Below, in pieces: positions 1 through 27,140 of a DNA stretch of 27,140 bases. Under the pieces are notes generated by a model. That model saw only the letters and a program-made list of their open reading frames with translations, ran no database searches and had not been told where the DNA came from. The position numbers and the translations under genes are program-made. The DNA comes from a virus: positions 1 to 27,140 of the IMG/VR virus record IMGVR_UViG_3300005518_000437; one strand, 5' to 3'. Position 1 is the stretch's first letter, and every line of letters begins with the position of its first letter.

Positions 1-240
1 CTAAGACTTGCCCACTAGCTTATCAATAATCTCATGCGGGTCCGCTTGCAAGACTCGTGTGATGTCAAGTAACTCCACCACGTCGAGTCTCCGTTCCCCG
101 CGTTCATACTTCGAAACAAACGACTGAGGCTTCTTGAGCTTGACGGCCAGTTGATTTTGAGAGAGACCCTTCTGTTCACGCAGGGAGATGAGGATTGAGA
201 GCAGGAGCCTGTATCGTTTGGTAAAGACCGAGTGCGTCAC
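1..240 (-). CDS. XRE-family (Cro/CI-like) transcriptional regulator
   Basis: A small DNA-binding repressor of the XRE helix-turn-helix family, about 79 residues from the GTG at 240. The run LREQKGLSQNQLAVKLKKP followed by QSFVSKYERGERRLDVVEL is the classic five-helix XRE core, with the recognition helix at QSFVSKYE. The frame is open upstream to a TTG at 393, but the extra 51 residues are basic and low in coding character, so I prefer the GTG at 240. No Shine-Dalgarno precedes it. A -10-like TATATT on the minus strand at 253-248 would place the transcript start almost on the GTG, so the mRNA may be leaderless. The gene diverges from the double-HTH gene at 634; together they resemble a phage immunity switch. 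The family call is solid; the role and start are inferred. Confidence 0.8.
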   Translation of the reverse strand: MTHSVFTKRYRLLLSILISLREQKGLSQNQLAVKLKKPQSFVSKYERGERRLDVVELLDITRVLQADPHEIIDKLVGKS

Positions 241-517
241 CCGACGAATATAAAACCTAAAACGGGTTGAACCCAAAACGGGTTTGGCATAAACTGACAA
301 TCGCTTTAGCGGCTTAGAGGGTGTGCCGCACGCATGGCTCCCAGGAACCTCGCGGCGCGTGTGCCCTCTCTTTTTTTTGCGGACGCTTAACAAGATTTTC
401 AGAACTGTCTATACATGTATTTATTTTCGTGAAAGTATTCACAGAAAATCGTTCTGACCCCATCATGGAGACTAGGGCAACGAGCGACGAGCTAAAAGGG
501 GTTTGCATAAGGGAGTT

Positions 518-1276: not shown

Positions 1277-2539
1277 ATGCTTACTAAACAGAGTTTACCA
1301 AATTCCAAAATTAGCGTCTATAGATTGCCGAAAGACTCGGACAACAGGTTTGCTATGGTTGATAGAAGATTCCTTTCAGATGACCATCTTAGCTGGGAGG
1401 CCAAGGGACTACTCGTCTACTTGCTCTCAATGCCGAACGACTGGTCGTTCCATCCAAAAGAAATCCGAACGCATGGGCCAGCGGGCAGGGACAAATTCAG
1501 TCGGATGCTCAGAGAGCTTGAGTGCGCTGGTTATATCAGGCGCTCCAAATGGCGGGATGCGTCCGGAAAGTGGCGCTGGGCATGGGAGGTGTTTGAATCG
1601 CCTGAGTTGTCGGAATCAGCATATTTTGAAGAATTCACCGAGACGGAAAACCCGTCAGTGGCGAATTTTGAAAAATCCACCGTGACTGAAAAACCGTTTA
1701 CGGTAAAACCGTCACCGGAAAAACCGTTTACGGAAGACCCGTTTACGGAGAACCCGTCAATATACTTAGACTGTCAGACTAATACTGATTCGACTAATAC
1801 TGATTGGACTAATACTGAGGCACAGAGAGGGGACAATTTCATGCACGATACTGCTGTGCATGAAATTGGCGGGCCTACGCTTGTGCACGAAGACGTGCCC
1901 GGCGCGAGCCCGCAACCTGTAGCCGACCTAGACCTTTCAAATTCTCGTTCGTTCTTCGCTGCTGACTCGGTATCCAGCATCGAAAGTAGGAATGTTTCTT
2001 CCTTAGAGGTAAAACCGTTCGTATCGACGGCATCTGTAGCAACAAGTGATACGGCCGCTGCGCCCGCGAATGTAATGCAGATTTCTTCTGTGCTTCAAGC
2101 CATAGCCACGTCTGCGGCCGAAGCTTCCGTTAGCCCCAACGCATACATGCCTCAGGGCGCGGCGTCTGGGGGCGATTCTCGGCAGACACTAACAGTTGAG
2201 GCTGAGGCTGCACGCGAAAACACGAGAGATGACTTTAACGAGCGTGCTGAGGCCCGTCGTGCGGCTGTTAACAAGGCACTCGCCATCGCCGGTTTTAACA
2301 GCGTTGAAGGAGAGCAGGATGCATACGAGCGGGGCGAAGGTGAGGAGCGCGTTGTCATTCGCCGGGCCTTTGGTAGCTGGCGTGTTTACGCAACAACAAT
2401 CAGTAGTTTGACTGGCAAGTCGATTTTGGTTTTGGAGACGCAGCACGATACGGTGGAGCTAGCAATCGACGCAACAGCCCGCAACAACATTGACTCCGGG
2501 TATACAAGTGTTGACGCGGCAACAGCGGTCGCTGCATAA
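1277..2539 (+). CDS. Phage replication initiator-like HTH protein
   Basis: A 420-residue protein whose N-terminal 110 residues form the winged-HTH domain of phage/plasmid replication proteins. It has the typical start VDRRFLSDDHLSWEAKGLLV, then a segment on one-by-one gene activation by helix packing (GRDKFSRMLRELECAGYI) that matches DnaD/RepA-type initiator domains. Residues 119-161 are degenerate five-residue repeats (EKPFT, EDPFT), followed by TNTDSTNTDWTNTE at 168-181. Such Asn/Thr tracts are usual in this family. The remainder is Ala-rich and probably disordered, with a possible small domain after residue 340. The ATG at 1277 follows AGGAG at 1267-1271; an in-frame ATG at 1169 has no comparable site. 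Its coding DNA holds the iteron-like repeats at 1680-1820. A role in origin binding is inferred from the family and the repeats. Confidence 0.72.
   Translation: MLTKQSLPNSKISVYRLPKDSDNRFAMVDRRFLSDDHLSWEAKGLLVYLLSMPNDWSFHPKEIRTHGPAGRDKFSRMLRELECAGYIRRSKWRDASGKWRWAWEVFESPELSESAYFEEFTETENPSVANFEKSTVTEKPFTVKPSPEKPFTEDPFTENPSIYLDCQTNTDSTNTDWTNTEAQRGDNFMHDTAVHEIGGPTLVHEDVPGASPQPVADLDLSNSRSFFAADSVSSIESRNVSSLEVKPFVSTASVATSDTAAAPANVMQISSVLQAIATSAAEASVSPNAYMPQGAASGGDSRQTLTVEAEAARENTRDDFNERAEARRAAVNKALAIAGFNSVEGEQDAYERGEGEERVVIRRAFGSWRVYATTISSLTGKSILVLETQHDTVELAIDATARNNIDSGYTSVDAATAVAA
1652..1759 (+). repeat. 15-bp periodic CCGTTTACGG repeats (iteron-like array 1)
   Basis: CCGTTTACGG occurs exactly at 1694-1703, 1724-1733 and 1739-1748. 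A variant CCGTCACCGG at 1709-1718 and the partial CCGTCA at 1754-1759 keep a strict 15-nt period; weaker copies lie at 1652-1661 and near 1680. Each core is itself an inverted repeat (CCGT-TT-ACGG). The spacing gives pentapeptide repeats in the initiator. Similarity to origin iterons within an initiator gene, as in lambda O, is an inference. Confidence 0.6.
1777..1820 (+). repeat. Three 15-bp direct repeats GACTAATACTGATT (array 2)
   Basis: GACTAATACTGA recurs at 1777, 1792 and 1807 with a 15-nt period; the first two copies share 14 of 15 bases. The unit is A+T-rich and sits immediately downstream of the CCGTTTACGG array, like an unwinding element beside iterons. It encodes the TNTDSTNTDWTNTE tract. 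Confidence 0.6.
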
Positions 2540-2767
2540 CACTCGCGATGCCGAGTCAACGCAAAACTATTGACTGCATATTCTATAATCGAGGTAGGTT
2601 AGAGCTTTAGTTTCATTTGAAGTGCAGTGCAGGCCGGTGGTCCCACACCGAACATCGTATAACTGAATAACTCGCAATCCCGACCACGGTCGGTCTGGGT
2701 TTCCAGCCAAGGTATTGCCACCGCGAAAAATCTGAACAGTCGAGGTGTGCCTAACACTAGGAGACGC
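2540..2767 (+). promoter_or_regulatory. Intergenic region with a -10-like element and a palindrome
   Basis: These 228 nt hold no supported gene. A perfect TATAAT at 2584-2589 could be a -10 element, although no good -35 lies 16-18 nt upstream. CCGACC-AC-GGTCGG at 2680-2693 is a 14-bp palindrome that could be an operator between the replication gene and the small paralog pair. Confidence 0.3.
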
Positions 2768-3124
2768 ATGGCACGAAATCTGAGTCGAAGCAGGCGCAAA
2801 GAAATCAGAGCGAAGAAGAAACAGTCATACGTGTTGGAGCATCAGCGGGAACTCGCTGAAGCGGCGCGTAAGCGCTATCTACTGATGCTCGACCCAGAGA
2901 CAAATCGCACACAGCTACGCAGCCTTGAACGAAGCACGCCGGCATTCGGTTTGCGAGCCGCGTTCGGCGCGATGATGGAGCGGGTGTTTAGGTATGCGCC
3001 CACTCCGATACCTACATGCGACATCGAGCACTTTAGATTTCATACCGTTGATTGTACGGACGACTACTCCGAGATGTTACTGCGCTGGCATCAGGCAAGA
3101 CTCTTAGAGAGACAGGCGGCTTAG
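2768..3124 (+). CDS. Small protein of unknown function, paralog A
   Basis: A 118-residue protein that I do not recognise. The ATG at 2768 follows AGGAG at 2759-2763; an in-frame GTG at 2747 lacks a site. The first 45 residues are strongly basic with runs such as SRSRRKEIRAKKKQ, suggesting nucleic-acid contact. The C-terminal half aligns with the next gene: GLRAAFGAMMERVFRYAPTP then CDIEHFRF here, against GLTASIGRVLQRAKMYTPPF then HDIRFFRF there. Both then continue with an acidic stretch (DCTDDYSEM; ELTDDPEEM) and an amphipathic helix. The gene pair therefore arose by duplication. Location in the early/regulatory block suggests a regulatory or replication-linked role, without direct support. 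Confidence 0.65.
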   Translation: MARNLSRSRRKEIRAKKKQSYVLEHQRELAEAARKRYLLMLDPETNRTQLRSLERSTPAFGLRAAFGAMMERVFRYAPTPIPTCDIEHFRFHTVDCTDDYSEMLLRWHQARLLERQAA

Positions 3125-3197: not shown

Positions 3198-3527
3198 ATG
3201 CGCAAGAAAGAGCACTTCATTAATCCCAGCCACCAGCGCGGCATTGACGAGAGGTTGCGCCGTAGCTTTCGCGTTGTTTTCGATGTGAACCACAAGGCTG
3301 AAGTTTACTCGGTTGAAGAACGTGGGAAAGCATATGGCCTGACCGCGAGCATCGGGCGCGTGCTACAGCGGGCGAAGATGTATACCCCGCCCTTCCTCAC
3401 GGCTCACGATATTAGGTTCTTCAGATTCGAAGACAGCGAGCTAACGGACGACCCCGAAGAAATGCAACGTCGCTTTGCGCGGGCTCACGAATTCGAAACA
3501 AGGCTCCGAAAGCTTTTTGGCATATGA
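3198..3527 (+). CDS. Small protein of unknown function, paralog B
   Basis: A 109-residue protein, paralogous to the one encoded at 2768-3124 over about 80 residues. The shared core runs from a beta-like FRVVFDV segment through YGLTASIGRVLQRAKMY to HDIRFFRFEDSELTDD. The N-terminal basic tail of paralog A is shorter here (MRKKEHFINPSHQR). The start at 3198 lacks a Shine-Dalgarno; a hairpin sits directly upstream. The TGA at 3525-3527 abuts the ATG of the four-HTH gene, so the two are probably translationally coupled and may work together. Function unknown. Confidence 0.65.
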   Translation: MRKKEHFINPSHQRGIDERLRRSFRVVFDVNHKAEVYSVEERGKAYGLTASIGRVLQRAKMYTPPFLTAHDIRFFRFEDSELTDDPEEMQRRFARAHEFETRLRKLFGI

Positions 3528-4832
3528 ATGACAACCTCGGCTGCTCAGGCTCCACAGGCTCAACAACGCATACTGGTCACTACCCTAGAAGCCGCAGCGA
3601 GACTCGGTGTTACTAGATACTCATTTCTCAAGTGGGTGCAGCACGGTGTCATAAGGCCCGTCATTAGGGGCAGGCGCGGTGGCAGTAAGCCGCGACCCCA
3701 TCAGTTTGACCTTGAAGAAGTTTTAAAGCTTGCGCGCACCACTCAACGGATAAAGCCGACTCGTAAGGTCACAGACGATGACCTCGTGACCACCCGACAG
3801 ATACACGAGCTTTTCGGTGTAAGCCCAACCACACTTTGGAAGCGTGTTAGGGCGGGCACACTGGAAGTAGTTGCACATCGCGCAACGGGGGTTGGGAAAG
3901 GCCGCACAAACTTCTATCGCATGGCAGATGTTCAGCGAGTTGTCGCTGAGATAGGCGGAGCCGATAGCTTAGCTAGGACTCCCACCCTCGTTTCGATTCT
4001 CGAAGCAAGCGCGATGTTGGGCATCAAACAGCGAACCCTCGAATCCTGGAAAACGAAGGGCTGGATTACGGCGGTTGCGGCAAAAGAAAAGCACAGACGC
4101 GTCCTCAGGTACGACCTTGAGCAGCTCCGGGCGTTCGTAGCAGACCACACACACGGCAAAGACGATGGCAAGACATCGGACGACACCGTGCTTTCGACAT
4201 ACAGGGCCTCAGAAGCGACCGGCATTTCGAAGCACACGATTGTGCAGTGGCTAAGCAACGGGCTACTACATCCCGTGCGAAAGTGCGCGACGGGCAGCTA
4301 CTACAGAGTCGGCGACCTACGACGGGTCAAGAGCGAAGTCGAACAGCGAACAACTGATGACGAGTACTTCACATTCGCGGCCAGGTATTACTTCACGATG
4401 GGCGATGAGCCGCGTGCCATTGTAACCGCGATGGTTTGTGCCTATGGGGGTGATGAGAGCCCTGAGTATGTGCTGTCTGACGCTATTGCGGCGGTGATGG
4501 CGACTCTGAACTGCGGGATGTCTTGTTGTGCGTCGCTTAATCGTCAACAGCGCATTGAGAAGCTGAAGAGTTTCAATAAGGTCTATGCGCCCGAGCCTCA
4601 CCGATGCTCCACACTCGATTACTCACACAGCCACGCCGATGAGTACGACTCTGTGGATGCTGATGGTGATGGCGATGAGTTCGACTCAGTATTAAGACGA
4701 AACGAGAGTGCGCAAGACGACGCATGGCGGAAAGAACAGCGCGAGTTGTTCTGGCTGCGTCTGAGCGGGAAGTACCGACGATGGGCGGTTGATTACCGTC
4801 AGCGACTTCGTAGCTGCGAAAACGTGATTTAG
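3528..4832 (+). CDS. Protein with four tandem MerR/excisionase-like HTH domains
   Basis: A 434-residue protein built from four winged-HTH units of about 55 residues. They are at 14-70 (VTTLEAAARLGVTRYSFLKW), 84-141 (VTTRQIHELFGVSPTTLWKR), 152-205 (VSILEASAMLGIKQRTLESW) and 219-270 (LSTYRASEATGISKHTIVQW). Each follows the MerR/Xis pattern: an A-x-x-x-G-[VI] turn, a recognition helix ending in W or R, a wing with a basic loop, then a helix beginning with D or D-L. The C-terminal 160 residues are different: a helical segment with a Cys cluster (NCGMSCCASL), an acidic Asp-rich linker at 370-388 and a basic Trp-containing tail. Single-domain excisionases are usual; four in one chain suggests binding to an extended multi-site target. 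It begins immediately after paralog B. Whether it acts as regulator, excisionase or partition protein is unknown. Confidence 0.68.
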   Translation: MTTSAAQAPQAQQRILVTTLEAAARLGVTRYSFLKWVQHGVIRPVIRGRRGGSKPRPHQFDLEEVLKLARTTQRIKPTRKVTDDDLVTTRQIHELFGVSPTTLWKRVRAGTLEVVAHRATGVGKGRTNFYRMADVQRVVAEIGGADSLARTPTLVSILEASAMLGIKQRTLESWKTKGWITAVAAKEKHRRVLRYDLEQLRAFVADHTHGKDDGKTSDDTVLSTYRASEATGISKHTIVQWLSNGLLHPVRKCATGSYYRVGDLRRVKSEVEQRTTDDEYFTFAARYYFTMGDEPRAIVTAMVCAYGGDESPEYVLSDAIAAVMATLNCGMSCCASLNRQQRIEKLKSFNKVYAPEPHRCSTLDYSHSHADEYDSVDADGDGDEFDSVLRRNESAQDDAWRKEQRELFWLRLSGKYRRWAVDYRQRLRSCENVI

Positions 4833-26627: not shown

Positions 26628-27140
26628 CTACTGGTCTACTATTACTCTACCATTAACAACTATACGGGTCCGTGTTTCACCGCCGATTGCGGACGTCTGG
26701 ACAGAGACATTTTGCCCTTGAACAAACGCTGAACCTTGGGCCTGAGCTTGTGAATAGTTGTATTGCGGAACAAACACTGAACTTTGGGCTTGAGCTTGTG
26801 AATAGTTGTATTGCGGAGCTTCAGGCTCGTCCGATTCATCGTTGATGGGTGTTGCTCTTCGAACAGTGGAATTCTTAGCACGCGCAACAGTTTTCTCAAC
26901 CGGCGCAGCTTCGGGTTGATTGGTCGCTGTCGCTGTCGATTCCGGTTTTGCGGGCGTGACCGTTAGGGTCTGGCTACCGTCCTTATTGTCGTCGCCCACA
27001 GTTACTTTGACATTCAGAAGGCTAATATGAATAGTATTCCCATTAATCTGAATAATTTTGGGCGCGCCAAAAGCAAGAATCAGCCCCATTATCCCCATCA
27101 TCATGAGCTTACCAATCCAATGATTTTGCTTACTTTCCAT
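26628..27140 (-). CDS. Membrane-anchored low-complexity protein
   Basis: A 170-residue protein whose ATG is the last codon of the window, so the true start could lie further upstream. A single hydrophobic segment at about residues 11-28 (KLMMMGIMGLILAFGAP) can anchor it to the membrane. Residues 57-108 are Thr/Ala/Glu-rich and probably disordered. Two 16-residue copies of PQYNYSQAQAQ-[SG]-S-x-FV follow at 108-139, encoded by a 48-bp tandem duplication. The end, TRTRIVVNGRVIVDQ, may form a small beta element. No function can be named. It may be host or conversion DNA. Confidence 0.6.
   Translation of the reverse strand: MESKQNHWIGKLMMMGIMGLILAFGAPKIIQINGNTIHISLLNVKVTVGDDNKDGSQTLTVTPAKPESTATATNQPEAAPVEKTVARAKNSTVRRATPINDESDEPEAPQYNYSQAQAQSSVFVPQYNYSQAQAQGSAFVQGQNVSVQTSAIGGETRTRIVVNGRVIVDQ
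26721..26816 (-). repeat. 48-bp tandem duplication in the membrane protein gene
   Basis: Two adjacent 48-nt copies, 26721-26768 and 26769-26816, differ at only three positions, all transitions. They encode the QYNYSQAQAQ repeats. High identity indicates a recent duplication or conversion. Confidence 0.85.

Follow-up and report, generated by a model that had tools for sequence, protein, structure and literature searches.

Iterons and A+T-rich repeats inside a winged-helix initiator gene mark a probable replication origin in a tailed-phage contig

The window analysed here, a virus sequence of 27,140 nucleotides, is a 27-kb linear contig that carries terminase, portal and capsid genes and is therefore regarded as a fragment of a tailed phage. 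Near one end lies a gene whose product best matches PHROG 4707, ‘replication initiation protein’ (E=6.5e-24), with PHROG 428, 270 and 186 also matching, in agreement with the preliminary description of this DNA, which had named it a replication initiator gene from the sequence alone. Searches with tblastn returned matches to the initiator in 227 phage records. A Pfam scan gave nothing above cut-off, including no match to the RepA_N domain, and yielded only a sub-threshold MarR match. The gene and the elements within it are as follows.

1277..2539, plus strand: replication initiator gene of the winged-helix type (420 aa; ATG at 1277, AGGAG upstream)
1334..1609, plus strand: N-terminal winged-helix domain (residues about 20-111; recognition helix from G70-R71)
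1644..1654, no strand assigned: isolated CGG-N5-CCG dyad CGGAAAACCCG upstream of array 1 and off its 15-bp register, read from the sequence
1686..1696, no strand assigned: degenerate iteron CTGAAAAACCG in register with array 1, read from the sequence
1701..1756, no strand assigned: array 1, four 15-bp iteron dyads CGGTAAAACCG, CGGAAAAACCG, CGGAAGACCCG and CGGAGAACCCG (starts 1701, 1716, 1731 and 1746), the proposed initiator-binding sites
1760..1776, no strand assigned: spacer, read from the sequence, where relatives have CTACTAA 13 nt past the last GG and the window has diverged to ATATACTTAGAC
1777..1818, no strand assigned: array 2, three 15-bp A+T-rich repeats GACTAATACTGA, the proposed unwinding element, from TRF and sequence

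Residues 1-127 of the initiator fold as a winged helix in an AlphaFold2 model of moderate confidence (mean pLDDT 69), with a helix at 70-84 and wing strands at 87-93 and 99-106. The nearest solved structures are all replication proteins, namely the Geobacillus primosome protein DnaB (Z 8.6), the pSK41 RepA N-domain (Z 7.9), RctB (Z 7.4) and DnaD (Z 6.7), where structural-aligner values below 8 may reflect a shared arrangement alone and a family absent from the aligner's list is not thereby excluded; Foldseek returned no structure for this model at E<=1e-3. The C-terminal 230 residues (window 1850-2539) had no family match and no relative in the Pfam, PHROG and relatives searches, and may constitute a new helicase- or primase-recruiting domain. 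Neither a DnaD-like C-terminus, nor an adjacent DnaC-type loader gene, nor any helicase loader was found in the 27-kb contig fragment.

Between the two domains the DNA is organised into two arrays with a 15-nt step. The sequence CCGTTTACGG occurs at 1694, 1724 and 1739, with the variant CCGTCACCGG at 1709, and GACTAATACTGA occurs at 1777, 1792 and 1807, with ACTAATACTGA at 1778, 1793 and 1808; TRF detects both arrays (1688-1757, score 84; 1777-1818, score 77), so that the coordinates and strict 15-nt period given in the preliminary description are all correct. The dyad CGG-N5-CCG, however, describes the repeat better, and CCGTTTACGG is then the junction where two such dyads meet. Array 2 is A+T-rich as had been proposed, but array 1 was also described as G+C-rich, whereas its consensus unit (about 40% G+C) is richer only than array 2 (about 33%) and not than the window (54%). 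GG-N5-CC dyads follow one another three or more times at a 14-16 bp step at a single place in the window, 1702/1717/1732/1747, and did so in 0 of 100 first-order Markov null sequences. The 15-lag DNA identity of both arrays also exceeded a synonymous-recoding null built on the window's codon usage (array 1, p=0.0008; array 2, p=0.0002), in line with the earlier suggestion that identity is stronger in the DNA than in the protein. The adjacent A+T-rich repeat block expected of an origin of the 80alpha/TP901-1 type is present at 1777-1818. No DnaA box was found in the window, and CTACTAA is absent at +13 after the last dyad, where ATATACTTAGAC and then three copies of ACTAATACTGA stand instead.

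To place these arrays within the family we gathered about 250 loci by protein match and by DNA pattern, from which a first non-redundant set of 116 genes and a larger one of 132 were drawn; an alignment of 14 sequences was too diverse for the locus search, while smaller alignments were usable. Across the 116 genes, autocorrelation past the winged helix reached 0.426 at 15 nt, compared with about 0.28, and showed weaker repeats of the signal at 30 and 45 that the N-terminal control did not have, as it also had none at 15, and GG-N5-CC was counted 322 times past the winged helix versus 29 in that control. Runs of at least three regularly spaced dyads lie just 3' of the winged helix, in the linker, in 53 of the 132 non-redundant relatives, and none occurs in 460 kb of sequence flanking them. 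The circular plasmids pAT1 and pCALKR01 have the same layout as the phage initiator genes, and a rep_origin is annotated at the equivalent place in the 80alpha and phiJB records. Close relatives of the whole initiator were not found in IMG/VR. The best portal relative is 81% identical and its contig is without the initiator; since no relative was found that shares the structural genes and the initiator together, synonymous change could not be traced among close relatives. A search of viral contigs for two copies of ACTAATACTGA gave six matches, one in the gene of a clear initiator (L215), and the rest other proteins or unclear. In L210 (minus strand, near 4329-4430) a ACTAATACTGA array is adjoined by an iteron of another kind, CTACAGTAGAAAACCTACAGTAGATTAA, and is covered by a short open frame that has no N-terminal winged helix.

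The dyads are conserved as DNA and not as protein. Under synonymous recoding of the 116 genes CGG-N5-CCG was observed 157 times versus 23±4 expected, and CTACTAA 69 times versus 5.8±2, while TTAGTAG, the reverse complement of the latter, stood at expectation; the leucine codon CTA takes a 41% share in the linker versus 11% elsewhere. Protein repeats kept while third codon positions vary freely, a pattern looked for in the 116 relatives, were not seen. Runs with a step of 15 lie in frame 2 in 39 genes and in frame 0 in 12, and in sixteen genes neighbouring dyads occupy more than one frame. With a step of 16 the dyads of locus L078 pass through frames 2, 0, 1, 2, 0 and 1, and with a step of 14 those of L050 through frames 2, 1, 0 and 2; such steps carry the dyads of a single gene through every frame, as no duplicated peptide could, and, with dyads also read in different frames in different phages, the conserved unit is DNA. 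Array 1 of the window and that of 80alpha are identical at 37 of 45 bases in shifted frames, and consequently read as EKPFTVKP in the one and GKTVNGKT in the other. The suggestion in the preliminary description that the amino-acid repeats follow from DNA sites is supported by dyads conserved in alternative frames. In a Brevibacillus plasmid (L208, 1787-1880) the iteron array switches midway from frame 2 to frame 0.

A second conserved element accompanies the dyads in many relatives. CTACTAA is present in 81 of them, and in 52 of these 81 its start lies exactly 13 nt past the GG of the last dyad, in two frames. When both frame classes are aligned on CTACTAA they share the DNA consensus cGGAAAAtCCg-CACTACTAA-TA-TAA, in which the CTACTAA block is 78% A+T versus 54% before it. 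The third reading frame was not seen among the relatives, and step-15 dyads are probably confined to two frames because the third would read CTACTAA as TAC TAA, a stop. On the bottom strand CTACTAA is 3'-GATGATT-5', which matches the DnaA-trio consensus, 3'-GAT-5' (PMC8287927). In the window, which has no CTACTAA at +13, triplets of the 3'-GAT-5' type at a short fixed distance were not found, and the unwinding role that we propose for array 2 accordingly draws on its composition and position.

Recognition helix and half-site also appear to vary together. The outer base of the half-site is C in 80% of cases where residue 71 is Arg, in 43% where it is Lys and in 26% for other residues, a link for which p ranged with the clustering from 0.0003 (62 clusters) through 0.04 (44) to 0.11 (29), so that relatedness may account for part of it. 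The phages 80alpha and phiJB amount to a swap made by nature. As far as the array 1 border their identity is mostly 53-77%, and they differ in winged helix and array 1; from CTACTAA onward they are nearly identical and share that block and the C-terminus. Together with the recognition-helix link, a swap at this border suggests that specificity, that is the winged helix plus its iterons, moves as one cassette. The phiJB locus (L006, 1810-1890) has iterons of the CGGAAAACGGATTTT type with a different winged helix, alongside the CTACTAA block and C-terminus of 80alpha.

In phage lambda, ori consists of iterons beside an A+T-rich element within gene O. The preliminary description had likened the window to lambda ori, and the likeness holds in the sense that the two would work alike but not as homology; with lambda O compared by profile scans, we claim a functional parallel only. 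In SPP1 too, gp38 binds oriL inside gene 38, where, as in the window, iterons stand beside an A+T-rich element within the initiator gene (PMC6316719). The closest architecture to the proposed window origin is the RepA_N/phage replisome-organizer type. For 80alpha, ORF20 is not complementable in trans, ORF20 and ORF21 together are enough for plasmid replication, and the authors suggested an origin embedded in the ORF20 gene (PMC5499656). ORF20 and the window initiator have homologous winged helices (41% over aligned pieces), and the 80alpha counterpart of array 2 is ACTAATAATGA, with the same 15-bp step; 80alpha differs from the window in that its array 1 is in another frame, CTACTAA is present, a DnaC-type loader gene lies next to the initiator gene, and the C-terminal domain is not the same. 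The initiators of TP901-1 and Tuc2009 bind repeats in their own genes, and these repeats act as origin (PMC8965321). TP901-1 Orf13 belongs to the same winged-helix family as the window initiator, and Orf13 and Tuc2009 Rep, annotated as DnaD-like, have TGG-N5-CC repeats and CTACTAA in the gene whereas the half-sites of the window are CGG. Among RepA_N plasmid initiators, the N-terminal winged helix of pSK41 RepA binds Rep boxes located centrally in rep, with an A-tract in the box, and its linker is dispensable as protein (PMC5703833). The window model aligns with 4pql and 5kbj at Z 7.9 and 7.2, while Foldseek gave no match at E<=1e-3, and the window initiator differs from RepA_N plasmid initiators such as pSK41 RepA and the pPR9 hybrid in matching no RepA_N family in Pfam. 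Finally, the basal unwinding system of bacterial oriC parallels the relatives in its order of double-strand sites, a short spacer and then a trio-like element, CTACTAA in the relatives (PMC8287927), and departs from the window in its DnaA box and DnaA initiator, the window also being without CTACTAA at +13.

Taken together, these data make it highly probable that the block at 1686-1818 is the origin of the phage, located in its own initiator gene and composed of initiator-binding iterons and an unwinding element. The candidate origin of the preliminary description is thereby supported, and in 80alpha and TP901-1 origins in this gene have experimental support (PMC5499656; PMC8965321). The locus belongs to a known kind, the 80alpha/TP901-1-type phage replisome organizer with the origin in its own gene, and computation established that the sites exist, that they are conserved as DNA, and where and in what geometry they occur across relatives. 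GC skew, which had been proposed as a check, makes no turn at the locus on this contig, itself a fragment. For the window phage we infer a route from binding to helicase loading. Dimers of the N-terminal winged helix, in the predicted stoichiometry, would bind the tandem CGG-N5-CCG dyads at a 15-bp step and build a nucleoprotein array that would melt the neighbouring A+T-rich repeats (the three copies of ACTAATACTGA), to which helicase and loader would then be recruited. The linker peptide, being encoded by the origin, would for the most part be an incidental product of its DNA sites.

An interdomain linker is to be expected in a protein of this kind, and the pentads are in frame in the window and in most relatives, with 39 of the 51 runs at step 15 sharing a frame; the repeats might accordingly belong to the protein, as Pro/Thr pentapeptides forming a flexible linker that joins the DNA-binding and C-terminal domains, and their DNA identity might stem from recent tandem duplication. 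We regard this as very unlikely, given that dyads recur in other frames and at the non-triplet steps of 14 and 16, that synonymous sites are constrained and the CTA leucine codon enriched in the linker, and that the corresponding linker of pSK41 can be dispensed with as protein (PMC5703833). Improbable as well, if to a lesser degree, is a role of the array as an initiator-bound control site for autoregulation, copy control, or partition and incompatibility, with replication beginning elsewhere. Operators and centromeres are also typically palindromic tandem sites, and binding by the initiator is not in itself proof of an origin, but the sites here lie deep in a coding region with a strand-specific A+T-rich element adjoining at fixed spacing, and in 80alpha autonomous replication needs no more than ORF20 and ORF21 (PMC5499656). 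That the dyads act as mRNA hairpins in attenuation or translation control seems hardly credible: a 191-nt RNA is slightly more stable in its fold than shuffled sequences (z=-2.0), an effect that is weak and expected of short inverted repeats, while the CGG-N5-CCG stems would have only 3 bp and one strand of the spacer is rich in A, like that of a bent DNA site.

Extending the origin reading from the window to the family, it is conceivable, although we put this forward tentatively and with rather more doubt than confidence, that these loci represent a very widespread type of origin, found in phages and plasmids alike, with one frame-blind grammar. Under it, (C)GG-N5-CC(G) dyads at a 14-16 bp step would be followed at exactly +13 by a strand-specific CTACTAA that serves as a DnaA-trio-like single-strand loading element without DnaA, and the pentapeptide repeats of the initiators would be by-products. 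In the open-licence papers searched we came across no account of a frame-independent grammar, of the 13-nt spacing or of the likeness to DnaA-trios. If true, the origins of many uncultured phages and some plasmids could be read directly from the initiator gene, each origin paired with its matching DNA-binding domain, and the trio-like block would offer a test of whether opening through single-strand triplet elements is general among origins and not a speciality of DnaA.

Several further features of the window were observed outside the initiator gene. At 254-284, near the start of a helix-turn-helix ORF (1-393, minus strand), AACCCAAAACGGGTTG occurs in almost two copies with a 16-bp step and is palindromic and operator-like. 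Two adjacent small ORFs at 2747-3124 and 3198-3527 resemble tandem paralogs and have no family match, and 3528-4832 encodes a 434-aa protein with four tandem stretches matching HTH_17/excisionase-like domains. A 48-bp tandem repeat in two copies lies at 26720-26817 within a minus-strand ORF.
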